Of a DNA stretch of 64,000 nucleotides, positions 15,151-24,027 are shown in pieces. A model generated the notes under the pieces. That model was not told the origin of the DNA and did no database searches. It worked only from the letters and a program-made list of their open reading frames with translations. The stretch comes from Labrenzia sp. 011 (GTDB lineage: Bacteria; Pseudomonadota; Alphaproteobacteria; Rhizobiales; Stappiaceae). A program made the position numbers and the translations under genes. Position 1 is the first letter of the stretch. Every line of letters begins with the position of its first letter. Where the stretch lies: the NCBI RefSeq assembly GCF_003075075.1, contig NZ_QCYM01000002.1, forward strand, positions 186,001 through 250,000, read 5' to 3'.

Positions 15151-16341
15151 TCATGTGTCGCGGGCGGGAACCGGTGCCGCTGCCTGCGCTACCTGTCGGG
15201 TCTTGAACTCTTCGGCCGCAAGCGAAAGCCCCCCGTCGGCCCCATCGACGAAATGGATGTGACGGCTGTTGCCGAGATCTTCCACGAAGCAGGTCATCAG
15301 CGCCGAGTCGGAGACATGCAGTCCATAAACGAGGAAACCGGCCCCGAAGGCCGTCTCCAGGCAGCTTTCAACCGCCGCAAGCTGGTCGGAGGTGAGATCG
15401 AGCACAAGCTGCAGACTGTCGCCGACCTTTCTGTGGTCGGTGTTGAGGCTCAGCTCGCGCATGTATCTTTGGGGCTCCAGGGGGCCGATGCGCCAGCCGG
15501 TGGAAGTACTCAGGACGAAGGCCAGGCATTCGAAAAGCCCTGTCGCCCAGCCGCGCAGCGTGCTGCCGGCCGAAGACATCCGGGCTTCCAGCCGGAGACT
15601 GGCGGGCGGAAAGCTGAACCGCAACCGCCTTTTCTCTGCCAGCCTTGTCCGGCTGTCGTCGGTCAGCGGGTTGAAACCGAGTTTCTCCGCCACGGCGTCC
15701 ATGACTTCAGGCAGGGATCTGGTGCCGGAAGGCTTGATGATCAGGGAAACGATCTGACCGTTCACCGCCGGCAACGGCTCCCAACGGCAGGACAGACCGT
15801 CCAGCGGCGGAAGTGCGGCATCCTGCTGCCTTATCGCGAAAGGCAGACAGGCTTGCGGGTCCTTCAGGATGCGATCGGCGATACCAAGGCCGTCGCCCAG
15901 GATCATTGCCAGATGGTTGCCCGGGCTGAGCCGGTACTTGCGCAGCCTTATGTCACCACCCAGAACTCTCAGATGCGCCACCGGGATGGCCGCCGCTCGC
16001 AGCTCCAGTTCCATGACCTTGCGGGCAAGGCCGACAACTCCGGCCAGCGCTTCGCGGCCCGCCGCCACATCCTGTTCGGGCACCACAAGCATGGCCCCGT
16101 CTCCGCCGAAGACGAAGGGGACCCGGTCGTGCCCCAGGCGGTTCACGACGGCGGCAATCACTGCCGCCCCCACCATGTTGACTTCCTTGTAGCGGCCCGC
16201 GGCAACCGCATCTCCCGAGCGCACGATGTCGGCAGCAAGCACATACCAGTCGTCCGGCACGGGACGGTAGCCGTCCAGTTCGCCAACCGAACTGAAATCC
16301 GAAAAACTCGGCAGGGCACTGTAAAAATCATCCGCGGACAC
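15151..16341 (-). CDS. DUF3095 family protein (nucleotide-cyclase-like)
   Basis: A 396-residue protein starting at GTG after GGGAG. The N-terminal half resembles DUF3095: FYSALPSFSDF, then WYVLAADIVRSGDAV, EVNMVGAAVIAAVVNRLG and FVFGGDGAMLVVP, a pattern like the catalytic core of class III nucleotide cyclases with acidic residues in ADIVRS and GGDGA. The C-terminal half has a second domain ending in HIHFVDGADGGLSLAAEEFK. The biochemical role of DUF3095 is not known to me; a nucleotide-binding or cyclase function is an inference from motif similarity. Confidence 0.75.
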   Translation of the reverse strand: MSADDFYSALPSFSDFSSVGELDGYRPVPDDWYVLAADIVRSGDAVAAGRYKEVNMVGAAVIAAVVNRLGHDRVPFVFGGDGAMLVVPEQDVAAGREALAGVVGLARKVMELELRAAAIPVAHLRVLGGDIRLRKYRLSPGNHLAMILGDGLGIADRILKDPQACLPFAIRQQDAALPPLDGLSCRWEPLPAVNGQIVSLIIKPSGTRSLPEVMDAVAEKLGFNPLTDDSRTRLAEKRRLRFSFPPASLRLEARMSSAGSTLRGWATGLFECLAFVLSTSTGWRIGPLEPQRYMRELSLNTDHRKVGDSLQLVLDLTSDQLAAVESCLETAFGAGFLVYGLHVSDSALMTCFVEDLGNSRHIHFVDGADGGLSLAAEEFKTRQVAQAAAPVPARDT

Positions 16342-18330: not shown

Positions 18331-19743
18331 ATGGAGCGCTCTTCCCATGCCGACCGCTTCGCCGAAATGATCGGCGCGGCACATGTACTGACCAACCCGG
18401 ACGACCAGGCTCCGTTCCTCACGGAGTGGCGGGATCTATATCAGGGCGTCACGCCCATGGTGCTGCGCCCGGGCAGTGCACAGGAGGTCAGCGCGGTCAT
18501 GACATATGCCCACGAACAGGGGCTGAAGATTGTTCCCCAGGGGGGCAACACGGGACTGGTGGGCGGACAAATCCCGCAGGAAACCGGGGATGAAATCGTC
18601 TTGTCCCTCTCGCGCCTCAACAAGATCCGGTCCGTCGATCCGGCCGGTTTCACCATCACGGTGGAAGCCGGAGTGGTGCTGGAAACACTGCAAAACGAAG
18701 CCGAAAAGGTCGACCGGCTGTTCCCCCTTTCGCTTGGCTCGCAGGGCTCCTGCCAGATCGGCGGGAACATTTCCACCAACGCCGGCGGCACCGCCGTGCT
18801 GTCCTACGGCAACACCCGCGACCTCGTCCTGGGCCTGGAAGTCGTCCTGCCCACCGGGGAGATCTGGAACGGCCTGAGGACCCTTCGCAAGGACAATACC
18901 GGTTATGATTTGAAACAATTATTTATCGGCGGAGAGGGCACCCTGGGGATCATTACTGCCGCTGCGCTGAAACTCTTTCCCAAACCGAAGAAGCTGGAAG
19001 CCGCCTTTATCGGATTGCCGAATCCCCAGGCCGCTCTCAAGCTGTTCTCGCTCGCAAAGGGCCAGGCCGGACCGGTACTGACCGGATTCGAAATCATGCC
19101 GCGCATCGGCATCGAATTCTGCCTGCGCCATCTGGAGGGGAGCCGCGATCCGCTGGAAGGCACGCATCCCTGGTATATCCTCATGGAACTTTCCAGCGCG
19201 TCCGACGCGTTTCCGGTGCGCGACCTGATGGAGAGCATTCTGGGCGAAGCCTTCGAGGCAGGCCTGGTGGAGGATGCGGCCTTCGCGCAGAACCTGTCCC
19301 AGGTTCAGGACTTCTGGCACATTCGCCACGGCATGTCCGAGGTACAGAAACCGGAAGGCGGCTCCATCAAGCATGATGTCTCCGTTCCCGTTGCCGTCAT
19401 CCCGGACTTTCTCGACAAGGCCATGGCCGCGGTCGAGGAGCTGGTTCCCGGCTGCAGGCCGGTGCCTTTCGGGCACATGGGCGACGGCAATATCCATTTC
19501 AACGTCAGCCAGCCGGTCGGCGCCGACAAGGACGACTACATCGCCGGCTGGGATGCCATGAATGCGGTCGTGCACGGTATCGTGCTCGACTTCGGTGGCA
19601 GCATTTCCGCCGAACACGGCATCGGACGCCTGAAGCGCAATCTCCTCGCGGAGGTGAAGCCGGAGATCGAGCTTGACCTGATGCGCCGGATCAAATCCGC
19701 GCTGGATCCGAAGAACCTTCTCAGCCCCGGCCGCGTCGTGTGA
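18331..19743 (+). CDS. FAD-linked D-2-hydroxyacid dehydrogenase (D-2-hydroxyglutarate/lactate type)
   Basis: A 470-residue flavoenzyme with an N-terminal FAD_binding_4 domain (PQGGNTGLVGGQIPQ, SCQIGGNISTNAGG) and a C-terminal FAD-oxidase C domain (PFGHMGDGNIHFNVSQP, AEHGIGRLK with the usual substrate/metal histidines). This is the D-2-hydroxyglutarate/D-lactate dehydrogenase group that sends electrons to the respiratory chain. The start ATG follows AAGGACCCCGCTC. Length is normal. The exact substrate cannot be decided. Confidence 0.88.
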   Translation: MERSSHADRFAEMIGAAHVLTNPDDQAPFLTEWRDLYQGVTPMVLRPGSAQEVSAVMTYAHEQGLKIVPQGGNTGLVGGQIPQETGDEIVLSLSRLNKIRSVDPAGFTITVEAGVVLETLQNEAEKVDRLFPLSLGSQGSCQIGGNISTNAGGTAVLSYGNTRDLVLGLEVVLPTGEIWNGLRTLRKDNTGYDLKQLFIGGEGTLGIITAAALKLFPKPKKLEAAFIGLPNPQAALKLFSLAKGQAGPVLTGFEIMPRIGIEFCLRHLEGSRDPLEGTHPWYILMELSSASDAFPVRDLMESILGEAFEAGLVEDAAFAQNLSQVQDFWHIRHGMSEVQKPEGGSIKHDVSVPVAVIPDFLDKAMAAVEELVPGCRPVPFGHMGDGNIHFNVSQPVGADKDDYIAGWDAMNAVVHGIVLDFGGSISAEHGIGRLKRNLLAEVKPEIELDLMRRIKSALDPKNLLSPGRVV

Positions 19744-20014: not shown

Positions 20015-20720
20015 GGATCAGGACAAGGCCCGCCTTCAGCGCTCAGGACAGACGCCTGTTTCGGAATGTCTTTTTCCGCTGTCCTGCCCGTCCCTTTTTC
20101 CGGCCGTTCAGTCAAATCCCCCTGATTTTGCCCAAAAGTTTTCCCCACCTTCGCAGAGCGCGGCGAGCGGGATGAACCTGTTTGCACCGATTCCCGGTTG
20201 AAAGCCTCATCGGCAAGGCATCGGCGTCCGCGAGGCCTCTGTCAAAAATGACCTGTCATTCAGCATTTCGATGACAACAGACCTGTTGAAACTCACTATT
20301 TTTGTATCTGTCTTTTGAAAACTCTGAGAAAATTCTTCTGAAAGTTAAATTTTTGCTAAATTTTTCTCCTGACCGAAAGTCATCTGAGAATCAATCAGAG
20401 GAAAACACCCTCGTTAAAACTTGGCTTCATTTTGACGTTAATGGAGTTCAAGATTCGTTATGTAAATTCTACATATCAGCCCAAAAACATCTACAAAAAT
20501 TACTATGTGAACGATCTATGACCTTATAAGAATAAGCTATTTGTAAAGATGGTAAATCAAAGGTTAATGTCATTTCATAGGCGGCAAAAAGCCGTACCGG
20601 TCAAAAGATCTTCAGATGGTCCAAAGTCCGAAAACAACAAACGGGCAGCGAAGCGGAAATCGCAGCCCAAACACAGTGCACAGAGGGGCGTTACACGCCC
20701 TCCCCATGAAGGAGGCCATC

Positions 20721-22184
20721 ATGCAGCTTCAGGTTATAGCGGAGTCAGATCCCTGGGATCGCGTAAAGAAAGAACTTAGGAACGAACTGGGAGATGATAT
20801 TTTCTCCAACTGGTTTGGCCGGGTCAACCACGAGGAAACCACGGGCGATGCGGTCCGTCTTTCCGTGCCGACCCGCTTCCTGAAGAACTGGATCCAGAGC
20901 AATTACGAGCAGCAGCTTGTCGGTCTGTGGAAACGGGAAAAGGACGCCATCAACCGTATCGAGCTAACCGTTCGCGGGGCATTGCGCCCCCGGCAGATCG
21001 GAGGTTCCCCGGAGCCGAAGGCCATTACGGCCCGCCGGATCAGCGGTCGCCCTGCCCCTTTCAACGGCACACCGCAATTCAGTGCCGCATCGGGGACGGC
21101 CTCGATCCCGTGTCTTGCGGACACCGGTGAGGAATCCGCAGCCGAATTCCTGAGCGGCGCGGCGCTGAACCCGAAACTGACATTCGACACGTTCTCGGAA
21201 GGCGCCTCCAACAGTCTGGCCTGCGCCGCCGTGCGCCAGATGGCCGGCGGCCATGAGGGCACGCTGAATCTGCTTTATATTCATTCCTCCACCGGCATCG
21301 GAAAGACCCATCTGCTGCAGGCGGCCGCCAGCCAGGCGCGCAAAACCGGCCGGCATGTCGCCTATCTGTCGGCGGAATTCTTCATGTACCATCTGGTTCC
21401 CGCCCTGCGCACCCCCGCCTTCCCGGTGCTGCGCCAGGCCATGAAATCCATCGACCTTCTGCTGATCGACGACCTTCAGTTTCTGCACGGCAAGCAGGCA
21501 CAGGAAGAGTTCAGCAAGACGCTCGAACTGCTGATGGAATTCCCCTCGCAGGTCATCATGGCGGCGGACCGTCCGCCGGAGCATCTCGATACGCTCGGCG
21601 ACGGCCTGTGCCAGGTCATCCAGAAGGGCGAAGTCATCGGTATCCAGGCAACGGATTATGCCCTGCGTCTGGACGTCCTGAACAAGCGCATCGCCTCGGC
21701 CCGCAAGACCCATCCCGGGTTTTCCGTACCGGACGAGGTTTCGGACTATATCGCCCGCTATGTGATCGCTTCGGCCAGGGATCTGGAGGGCGCGCTGAAC
21801 CGGCTCTTTGCCCATAACCAGCTGTCCCGGCAACCGGTCACCCTCGACTTAGCCGAAAAGACCCTGCACGACCTGGTGCGGATCGGCGAACCGAGATTGA
21901 TCAAGGTCGAGGAAATCCAGCAGGTCGTCTGCAAGCATTTCAGCGTTACCAAGGCGGACCTTCTTTCCTCGTGCCGGGCAAGGGTCCTGGTCCGTCCGCG
22001 TCAGATCGCCATGTATATCGCCAAGGTGGTGACCGGGCGCTCGCTGCCGGAAATCGGTCGCCGCTTCGGCAATCGCGATCACACCACGGTTCTGCACGCC
22101 GTGCGCAAGATCGGCGACATGGTGAGCAAGGATCCGGTTCTTTCCCAGGAAATCGAGCTCCTGAAGCGGCTCATTCAGGCCTGA
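20721..22184 (+). CDS. dnaA: DnaA replication initiator, divergent: arginine finger missing
   Basis: A 487-residue DnaA. ATG 20721 is chosen because AAGGAGG lies five bases upstream. Domain I (WDRVKKELRNELGDDIF, SVPTRFLKNWI) leads to a linker (about 85-150). The AAA+ domain has Walker A STGIGKTH (190-197), Walker B IDLLLIDD (244-251), sensor 1 AADRPP (281-286) and sensor 2 SARDLEGALN (351-360). Domain IV keeps the DNA-binding signature SLPEIGRRFG and NRDHTTVLHA (441-460) and most of the basic loop (CRARVLVRPRQ). At box VII, where DnaA normally has R-x-R-S-R, this protein reads DGLCQVI (294-300): both arginines, including the arginine finger, are gone. No frameshift explains it. It could be the sole initiator with an altered ATP switch, or a paralogue. 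Confidence 0.88.
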   Translation: MQLQVIAESDPWDRVKKELRNELGDDIFSNWFGRVNHEETTGDAVRLSVPTRFLKNWIQSNYEQQLVGLWKREKDAINRIELTVRGALRPRQIGGSPEPKAITARRISGRPAPFNGTPQFSAASGTASIPCLADTGEESAAEFLSGAALNPKLTFDTFSEGASNSLACAAVRQMAGGHEGTLNLLYIHSSTGIGKTHLLQAAASQARKTGRHVAYLSAEFFMYHLVPALRTPAFPVLRQAMKSIDLLLIDDLQFLHGKQAQEEFSKTLELLMEFPSQVIMAADRPPEHLDTLGDGLCQVIQKGEVIGIQATDYALRLDVLNKRIASARKTHPGFSVPDEVSDYIARYVIASARDLEGALNRLFAHNQLSRQPVTLDLAEKTLHDLVRIGEPRLIKVEEIQQVVCKHFSVTKADLLSSCRARVLVRPRQIAMYIAKVVTGRSLPEIGRRFGNRDHTTVLHAVRKIGDMVSKDPVLSQEIELLKRLIQA

Positions 22185-22505: not shown

Positions 22506-22940
22506 ATGACGCTTCCCAGCGTTGACGCGCTCAAGACCCAGGCCAGGCGCCTGCGCGCAGCTCTCACCGCCAAGGGGCAGGTGCTCTCGCACAGCCAGGC
22601 ACTGGAGCTGCTTTCCGCCCAATACGGTTACAAGGACTGGAACACGGCCTGCGCCGCGGCATCCGCAACCGGCCCCGACCTGCCCTTCTCGGTTGGCGAC
22701 CGGGTCACCGGTCTCTACATGCAGCAGGCCTTTACCGGAGGCATCAGAGGGCTGTCCCGTATCGGGCAGTCAGGACATCTTCGTGTGACCCTGCAGTTCG
22801 ACGAACCGGTCGACGTGGTGACTTTCGACAGTTTTTCCGCCCATCGCAGCCGGGTGACCTGTGTCGTTCGTCAGGACGGAGTCGCCGTGCAGAAAACGTC
22901 GGATGGCGAACCCCACCTGAAGATGAAACGTATCGTCTGA
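22506..22940 (+). CDS. Glyoxalase-related protein-domain protein
   Basis: A 144-residue protein. Its first 50 residues match the small glyoxalase-related domain pattern (LPSVDALKTQARRLRAALTA, then ISHSQALE-like HSQALELLSAQYGYKDWNTA), found in many alphaproteobacterial proteins of unknown function. The rest is a beta-rich segment (VGDRVTGLYMQQAFTGG and FDEPVDVVTFDSFSAHR). No metal-dependent glyoxalase active site is evident, so enzymatic activity is doubtful. Confidence 0.7.
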   Translation: MTLPSVDALKTQARRLRAALTAKGQVLSHSQALELLSAQYGYKDWNTACAAASATGPDLPFSVGDRVTGLYMQQAFTGGIRGLSRIGQSGHLRVTLQFDEPVDVVTFDSFSAHRSRVTCVVRQDGVAVQKTSDGEPHLKMKRIV

Positions 22941-23076: not shown

Positions 23077-23937
23077 TCAGCGGCGGCGCGCCATGACGAG
23101 ATGGCCGGGGACGGGATCGTTTTCCTCCAGACGTACGGTGATGGGCTCCATCGCAAGGATGTCGAATCCGGCCGTGTCGAGCGCCGTCCGGATATAGGTC
23201 TCGCCCTGAGCGAAGCGGTTTTTCGCGCCAACCATATAAGCCCGCCCTCCGAGAACTTCCTCGGGAAGCGTTTCGGTGGAGAATGCCAGGCAGCCCCCCG
23301 GGCCAAGCCGGCCGGCGGCGCCCGCAAGAAACGGTTCGACGGCGCCGAGATAGGGAAACACGTCGGTGGCGGTGATCAGGTCCCAAAGCGGAAACGAGCC
23401 GTCTTCGTCCTCGAAATCCTGCAGGAATTCCACCGCCTCGCCCACATAGAGATCGTCATAGACCTGCCGGTCGTAGGCCAGTTCGACGATACGCTCGGAC
23501 AGGTCGACCCCCGTCCGGTGGACAGTGCAATCGGTCAGAGCCATGCCGGTCAGGCCGGTGCCGCATCCCAGATCCAGCAGGCGGGTGAACGGCCCGATCT
23601 CCAGGCGGCGGATCAGATCCTGCACGAGCAGGGGAACGCAGTAGCCCAGCGCGTCCACCAGGATGTCGTCGAACACATCCGCGTGCTGATCGAACAGCGT
23701 CGCGACATAGGCATCGGGCATCTTTCCCGGGGCCTCCTGCGCGCCGATGGCCGCCAGGCGAATGCTGACACCACCGGGATCCGACGGGTCAAGGGTCAAT
23801 GCGTGACGGAACGCCTGTTCCGCCCCCTTCAGATCGCCTGCCTTCTGAAGCTCGAGGCCGCGATTGTAGGCTTCCGCGAGGGCTTCGTTTTCCGTCGCAT
23901 CTTGCTCAAAGGGGGCGAAGTTGTCGTTGTCGCTCAT
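23077..23937 (-). CDS. TPR-containing class I SAM methyltransferase
   Basis: A 286-residue protein with an acidic N-terminus, one tetratricopeptide-like repeat (AYNRGLELQKAGDLKGAEQA, about residues 23-60), and a C-terminal methyltransferase with SAM motif I LLDLGCGTGLTGMAL, then TGVDLSERIVELA and LGPGGCLAFSTE. The segment FDQHADVFDDILVDALGY is typical of methyltransferases that follow TPR units. The start at 23937 follows AAGGATGACGAC. The target (protein or small molecule) is unknown. Confidence 0.82.
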   Translation of the reverse strand: MSDNDNFAPFEQDATENEALAEAYNRGLELQKAGDLKGAEQAFRHALTLDPSDPGGVSIRLAAIGAQEAPGKMPDAYVATLFDQHADVFDDILVDALGYCVPLLVQDLIRRLEIGPFTRLLDLGCGTGLTGMALTDCTVHRTGVDLSERIVELAYDRQVYDDLYVGEAVEFLQDFEDEDGSFPLWDLITATDVFPYLGAVEPFLAGAAGRLGPGGCLAFSTETLPEEVLGGRAYMVGAKNRFAQGETYIRTALDTAGFDILAMEPITVRLEENDPVPGHLVMARRR

Positions 23938-24027
23938 GTCGTCATCCTTACCGGGAGAGCCTTCCCCTACAGCGGTCCCGACCCGATTGCACGGCAAATC
24001 TGCCCTGCAGTCGGCACCGGTAGCGGA

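Follow-up and report, generated by a model that had tools for sequence, protein, structure and literature searches.

Does a DnaA without the box VII arginine finger initiate the replication of its genome, or is it a paralogue with another task? The question is raised by a gene in the window, the stretch of 64,000 nucleotides of Labrenzia sp. 011 that was analysed here, and it matters since the arginine finger is a cornerstone of the ATP-DnaA model. The gene, which we call dnaA2 (20721..22184, + strand), encodes a DnaA of 487 aa with domains I-IV, and its start codon is backed by a conserved GGAGGCC ribosome-binding site immediately 5'. The protein reaches 399.1 bits against TIGR00362, the full-length DnaA equivalog model (cut-off 343.9), and carries DnaA_N, Bac_DnaA and Bac_DnaA_C in the order that membership of the DnaA family demands. 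Its score against the Hda model TIGR03420 is 88.1 bits, below the cut-off of 194.8, and that against the DnaA model NF009087 (PRK12422) is 152.5 bits, below the cut-off of 657. The most conspicuous aspect of the sequence is the segment DGLCQVI (residues 294-300; 21600..21620, +), which a codon alignment places where D-R-x-[RK]-S-R-[LF] is expected. This part of the alignment is free of gaps against 31 canonical DnaA of the genus, 8 outgroup DnaA and the DnaA of E. coli, the reference sequence of which, used for residue numbering, agrees with NC_000913. Both box VII arginines looked for in a DnaA are replaced: G295 (21603..21605, +) stands at the position of E. coli R281, and V299 (codon GTC; 21615..21617, +) at that of the arginine finger, R285. 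In addition, C297 occupies the position of K283 and E304 (21630..21632, +) that of L290 (AID-2), which is Leu in 39/39 canonical and outgroup DnaA. The description given in the original prediction, namely a DnaA with domain I, Walker A and B, both sensors and the DnaA-box motif, in which DGLCQVI replaces R-x-R-S-R between flanks that align without gaps, proved accurate, and its coordinates were right to the base.

The same genome provides the first part of the answer. Its assembly (65 contigs, 99.9% complete) encodes, on another contig, a second DnaA with an intact box VII, LDDRVRSRL, followed by genes that we take, from a reading of their translations, to be dnaN, recF and gyrB. This usual, although not strictly defining, gene order is absent at dnaA2. 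The two DnaA proteins share ~57% identity, and the DnaA of the window is a paralogue, not the sole DnaA of its genome. It had been suggested that the lineage initiates replication through an altered ATP switch, an idea that finds no support now that a canonical DnaA with an intact box VII, in the dnaA-dnaN-recF-gyrB order, is present. The other suggestion, a DNA-binding paralogue with a titrating or regulatory role, is borne out as regards paralogy and the retention of the DNA-binding residues, while the role itself can only be proposed. A canonical-type DnaA is found in every genome of the genus (n=45), with an intact box VII in all 31 that were read; for the remaining 14 of the 45 it is known from a match at 56-57% identity only. 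From its named relatives, the genus appears to be Roseibium.

The distribution of the paralogue follows the limits of this genus. In a set of 87 genomes of the family (match E <= 1e-60), a second DnaA occurs in 41/45 genus genomes, and one DnaA each in 42/42 genomes of six other genera. Across the class (289 genomes sampled, 280 matched at E <= 1e-50, up to five candidates scored in each), the source genome is the only one with two dnaA genes. No dnaA2 was found in four of the 45 genus genomes (G015, G016, G018 and G070); DnaA2 is an accessory DnaA, which some members of the genus do without. A tree built from 81 DnaA proteins groups all 41 paralogues in a single clade (support 100/100), apart from 31 canonical genus copies, even if long branches meet within the paralogue clade and placement there is less sure. 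The simplest account has dnaA duplicated once, at the base of Roseibium or close to it, with losses thereafter; a later gain within the genus is possible, the root of the genus being unsure. Two further sequences were encountered among the DnaA matches. In one related genome the sole DnaA match (G057:C12:81737-83187) is split in two frames. The genome G017 has a third DnaA (L059:8986-10404), ~46% identical, which keeps both box VII arginines and overlaps an adenylosuccinate-synthetase-like gene, possibly on a mobile island.

The genomic place of dnaA2 is also conserved. In the window the gene is preceded by a FAD-linked oxidase gene (18331..19743, +) and followed by a gene of the glyoxalase superfamily (Glyoxalase_8; 22506..22940, +) and a methyltransferase gene (23077..23997, -). 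The paralogue lies between the FAD-oxidase and methyltransferase genes in 10/10 loci checked, divergent ones included. The four genus genomes in which dnaA2 is missing retain the FAD-oxidase, methyltransferase and glyoxalase genes. The search for an empty place outside the genus covered six genomes of other genera, two of which, each from a different genus, have the flanks close together: ~80 bp apart in G052, where there is no dnaA2, and ~1.6 kb apart in G042, with no DnaA between them. The two neighbours are 8.6 kb apart in G047 and on different contigs in G044 and G060, and G098 has no methyltransferase match. A gene for a DUF3095 protein is another companion of the locus (window 15151-16341, -), present in 10/10 paralogue loci examined.

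Comparison of the paralogues places the DGLCQVI segment in a wider pattern. R281 and R285 are Arg in 31/31 canonical genus copies, 8/8 outgroups and 20/20 further DnaA sampled across the class (the 20th read by eye); the alignment with related genera that had been called for leaves the box VII arginines invariant in 39/39 canonical and outgroup DnaA. In the paralogues, R281 is kept in 2/41 and lost in the other 39, while R285 is kept in 35/41. Within clade A, which comprises the 31 paralogues that are >75% identical to the DnaA2 of the window, R281 is lost in 29/31 copies and the L290 position is taken by Glu, Gln or His in 31/31. The source genome belongs to a clade of four species without R285, with V in the source genome and Y (codon TAC) in the three related species, one of which is R. 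marinum; the other 27 clade-A paralogues have R285 in 27/27, yet eight different residues at position 281. Separate losses of R285 are seen in G075 (K) and G084 (L), both long-branch copies. The loss of the finger face has taken place in two steps, R281 nearly clade-wide and R285 only in the four-species clade and two single genomes. Since most paralogues keep R285, the finger probably still served DnaA2 in its ancestral role, and the R285-less subclade of the window is a derived state. Canonical DnaA has 296 near-invariant sites. When these are ranked by their variability in the paralogues, D280 and R281 take the first two places, and box VII, with 11 of the 296 sites, accounts for 7 of the top 30 (hypergeometric P = 1.4e-5, a descriptive value since related sequences are not independent).

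These counts also bear on the trivial explanation, an error of sequencing or assembly in the source genome. The exact protein was found on the source contig only, as such an error would predict; however, the codon alignment is ungapped, the loss of R281 is nearly clade-wide, and R285 is also missing in three other assemblies of the closest relatives, including Roseibium marinum DSM 17023, which have Tyr. Because both arginines are present in all canonical and outgroup DnaA read and three further assemblies are without R285, DGLCQVI cannot be put down to chance or to a lone sequencing error, and we regard an artefact as extremely improbable. The codons GTC of the window and TAC of its relatives are each two bases away from the CGC of G006, G071 and G081. 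Resequencing had been named as one result that might overturn the prediction, and for the missing arginine those three assemblies speak against it. The other was a substitute arginine elsewhere, for which the sites common to the four R285-less paralogues were screened: 13 sites, residue 299 included, differ in all four from >=85% of the 27 other clade-A copies, and only one of them gains an arginine, at residue 370 (K to R), which follows sensor 2 in the sequence.

The ATP and DNA-contact residues checked have not drifted in this manner. Walker A K178, Walker B D235/D236, sensor 1 D269 and sensor 2 R334 are kept in 41/41 paralogues, as are the DNA-contact residues R399, R407, Q408, D433, H434, T435 and T436. 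DnaA2 probably still binds ATP and DnaA boxes, as judged from these residues. A decaying duplicate, in which the changes of box VII reflect relaxed constraint, would agree with the absence of dnaA2 from 4/45 genus genomes, with the long-branch copies G075 and G084 that are also without R285, and with the rates of substitution. In the six pairs of the four-species clade, dN/dS is 0.044-0.097 for the paralogue and 0.017-0.041 for canonical DnaA, a ratio of 1.7-3.1; the loosest pair, the divergent G009/G022, has 0.20 against 0.05. Yet the subclade values are themselves low, and over the 18 pairs computed the paralogue is looser than canonical DnaA in 14 and tighter in 4. In addition, none of the 41 copies contains an internal stop codon. 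The gene is constrained, though more loosely than canonical dnaA, and we consider decay an unlikely explanation, on account of this purifying selection and of two elements conserved upstream, a noncoding block and a covarying leader hairpin.

The first of these elements is a 96-bp noncoding block 5' of dnaA2 (20488..20583, +), with strong matches at dnaA2 only, one per genome. It is 76-96% identical in 12 of the 18 other genus genomes covered (G013: 69 of the 96 bases), always just upstream of dnaA2 and nowhere else in these genomes at a comparable score. The block of G017 lies at the far end of the contig that begins with dnaA2, this contig being taken as circular. There is no strong match in 6/19 genus genomes: G009, G014, G016 and G018 have none at all, and G001 and G015 have a match of only 19-23 bases (E 0.2-0.7), which in G001, the bearer of a clade-A dnaA2, lies directly upstream of the gene. 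As synonymous sites are near saturation in the more distant pairs, the conservation of the block is real. A TATGA-CC-TCATA palindrome occurs in the block of several relatives and, imperfectly, in the window (20517-20528); it could be an operator. A second, shorter conserved noncoding stretch (CTTTTGAAAAC ... GTTAAATTTTTGCTAAA) lies at 20312..20360 (+).

The second element is a predicted hairpin of the mRNA leader, before the ribosome-binding site (20685..20701, +), the arms of which vary in a compensating way in clade A. Over 30 sequences (25 distinct), its nine pairs are 86% paired against 52-64% for slid controls, a comparison that favours the structure to some extent, as it was derived from one of the aligned sequences, and that is lowered by the four R285-less leaders, which align in a shifted register. 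The alignment holds 30/31 clade-A copies; G017, with its copy at a contig start, was left out. Changes on both sides were seen at six pairs, and the covariation score exceeds that of all 500 shuffles. Two other measures are not outstanding, the count of pairs changed on both sides being reached by 33/500 shuffles and the value for further pair types by 495/500. It can be hypothesised that this hairpin, beside the ribosome-binding site, controls the translation of dnaA2.

The upstream region also bears on whether DnaA2 could be a second initiator, acting at an origin of its own near dnaA2. The full DnaA layout is retained, and the 500 bp that precede dnaA2 in the source genome have a higher AT content (59%) than those before canonical dnaA (41%), both of which would suit such a role. 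Against it, the 700 bp that lie 5' of dnaA2 in the source genome contain no DnaA box with >=8/9 bases, and the single near-consensus boxes upstream in other species are scattered and at most common to close relatives. Moreover, where one contig bears both dnaA2 and canonical dnaA, ~0.7-1.3 Mb separate them (with three contigs treated as circular), and R281, required for helicase loading in E. coli, is lost in 39/41. We consider a second initiator very unlikely. The same lack of a box with >=8/9 bases in the 700 bp means that autoregulation of dnaA2 through DnaA boxes is not seen.

We propose instead that DnaA2 is an accessory regulatory DnaA which has kept its binding to ATP and DnaA boxes but has no arginine finger to donate, and which acts as a negative modulator, a reading that we hold to be reasonably probable and that is drawn by analogy with E. 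coli. In E. coli DnaA, the ATP of a neighbouring protomer is engaged by R285; R281 gives the oligomer stability and is required for DnaB loading, though not for unwinding; and L290 is believed to sit in the interface between protomers (PMC5742627). The finger face of DnaA2 is reshaped, with R281 and L290 lost widely in clade A and R285 in the subclade of the window. By this analogy, a canonical DnaA neighbour could place its arginine finger on the ATP bound by DnaA2, but in the R285-less subclade DnaA2 would be unable to engage the ATP of the next protomer. Because the finger would be accepted and not given, DnaA2 may be a regulator that occupies boxes or ends a DnaA filament without loading the helicase, a negative modulator of initiation, of DnaA-box promoters, or of both. 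We infer from the analogy both this one-sided co-assembly with canonical DnaA and the regulatory role. The loss of R285 does not define DnaA2 genus-wide: 35/41 keep the finger, and most species may still donate it. A more specific version, which we put forward as tentative and rather doubtful, is a dedicated and selected filament-capping paralogue that joins ATP-DnaA by its intact ATP face and, having no finger to give, ends the filament, a brake or timer on initiation the dose of which would be set by the upstream block and the leader hairpin.

The main rival to an accessory regulatory DnaA is a pure transcription-factor role, in which domain IV acts at DnaA-box promoters and no ATP filament is formed, leaving box VII free to drift. 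The identity of the checked DNA-contact residues to those of canonical DnaA in 41/41 paralogues is consistent with it, and the part of the literature consulted on GafA describes a DnaA-like DNA-binding region in this regulator of the class (PMC9638019). Nevertheless, the Walker A/B and sensor 1/2 residues are likewise kept in 41/41, and R285 persists in 35/41 amid drifting neighbours. Because the ATP residues and R285 are kept, the ATP and oligomer machinery seems to be still selected in most species, and a mainly transcriptional DnaA2 appears to us a serious though less probable option. With dnaA2, the control of initiation by mixed DnaA filaments becomes testable in a free-living marine bacterium. 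A finger face that drifts, ATP- and DNA-contact residues that are fixed and one subclade without the finger amount to a natural separation-of-function series.

There is also a practical consequence for annotation. Both dnaA copies of a genome can share one database name, as do both of R. marinum, and the main contig of the G017 assembly starts at dnaA2 (G017:C1:1-1461), with canonical dnaA ~1.1 Mb away; an origin set by the first dnaA found could therefore be ~1 Mb off.

A duplicate dnaA as such is already known in other groups and is not new in kind. To our knowledge, none of the genera named with two dnaA genes in the section of the genome survey that we consulted is alphaproteobacterial. 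That section reports DnaA as single-copy in most bacteria (1,016/1,067 genomes) and two dnaA genes in 40/1,067, Chlamydia, Desulfovibrio, Pirellula and Fibrobacter among others (PMC3080875), and a second dnaA is also described for Waddlia in the portion consulted of its genome report (PMC2878342); these duplicates can be likened to dnaA2 by gene number. In the literature searched, including the consulted parts of PMC3281065, PMC6699656 and PMC9638019, we found no report of a second dnaA in Roseibium or Labrenzia, and a thin search of partly consulted sources returned none of a natural R285-less DnaA. Additional DnaA-type genes in Alphaproteobacteria are found in the RAGE mobile elements of Orientia, for which the consulted part of the source describes 10-23 copies of DnaA-like genes with the DnaA N-terminal domain (PMC10732058); unlike these mobile-element-borne copies, dnaA2 is single, full-length, syntenic and chromosomal. 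GafA offers an example, from the same class, of DnaA-like DNA binding used by a regulator, but its resemblance to DnaA is local and confined to the DNA-binding region, whereas DnaA2 keeps the whole DnaA layout (PMC9638019).

Hda/HdaA resembles DnaA2 in an AAA+ domain related to domain III of DnaA, and Hda regulates DnaA. Hda has no DnaA-box-binding domain and possesses an arginine finger of its own, and DnaA2, at 88.1 bits, is under the Hda cut-off of 194.8. Canonical DnaA (TIGR00362; for instance that of the source genome and b3702 of E. coli) is like DnaA2 in domain layout, in the Walker A/B, sensor and DNA-contact residues and in a score above the cut-off; DnaA2 differs from it in the replacement of R281, K/R283, R285 and L290, in an identity of only ~57% and in its absence from 4/45 genus genomes. 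A laboratory parallel is given by the E. coli R281A and R285A mutants, which have lost the same positions and on which we base the prediction that ATP-dependent oligomers would be unstable or fail to form (PMC5742627, PMC6727663, PMC6127211). Those mutants are single laboratory substitutions in the only DnaA of the cell, whereas DnaA2 is a natural, selected paralogue with several changes at the interface.
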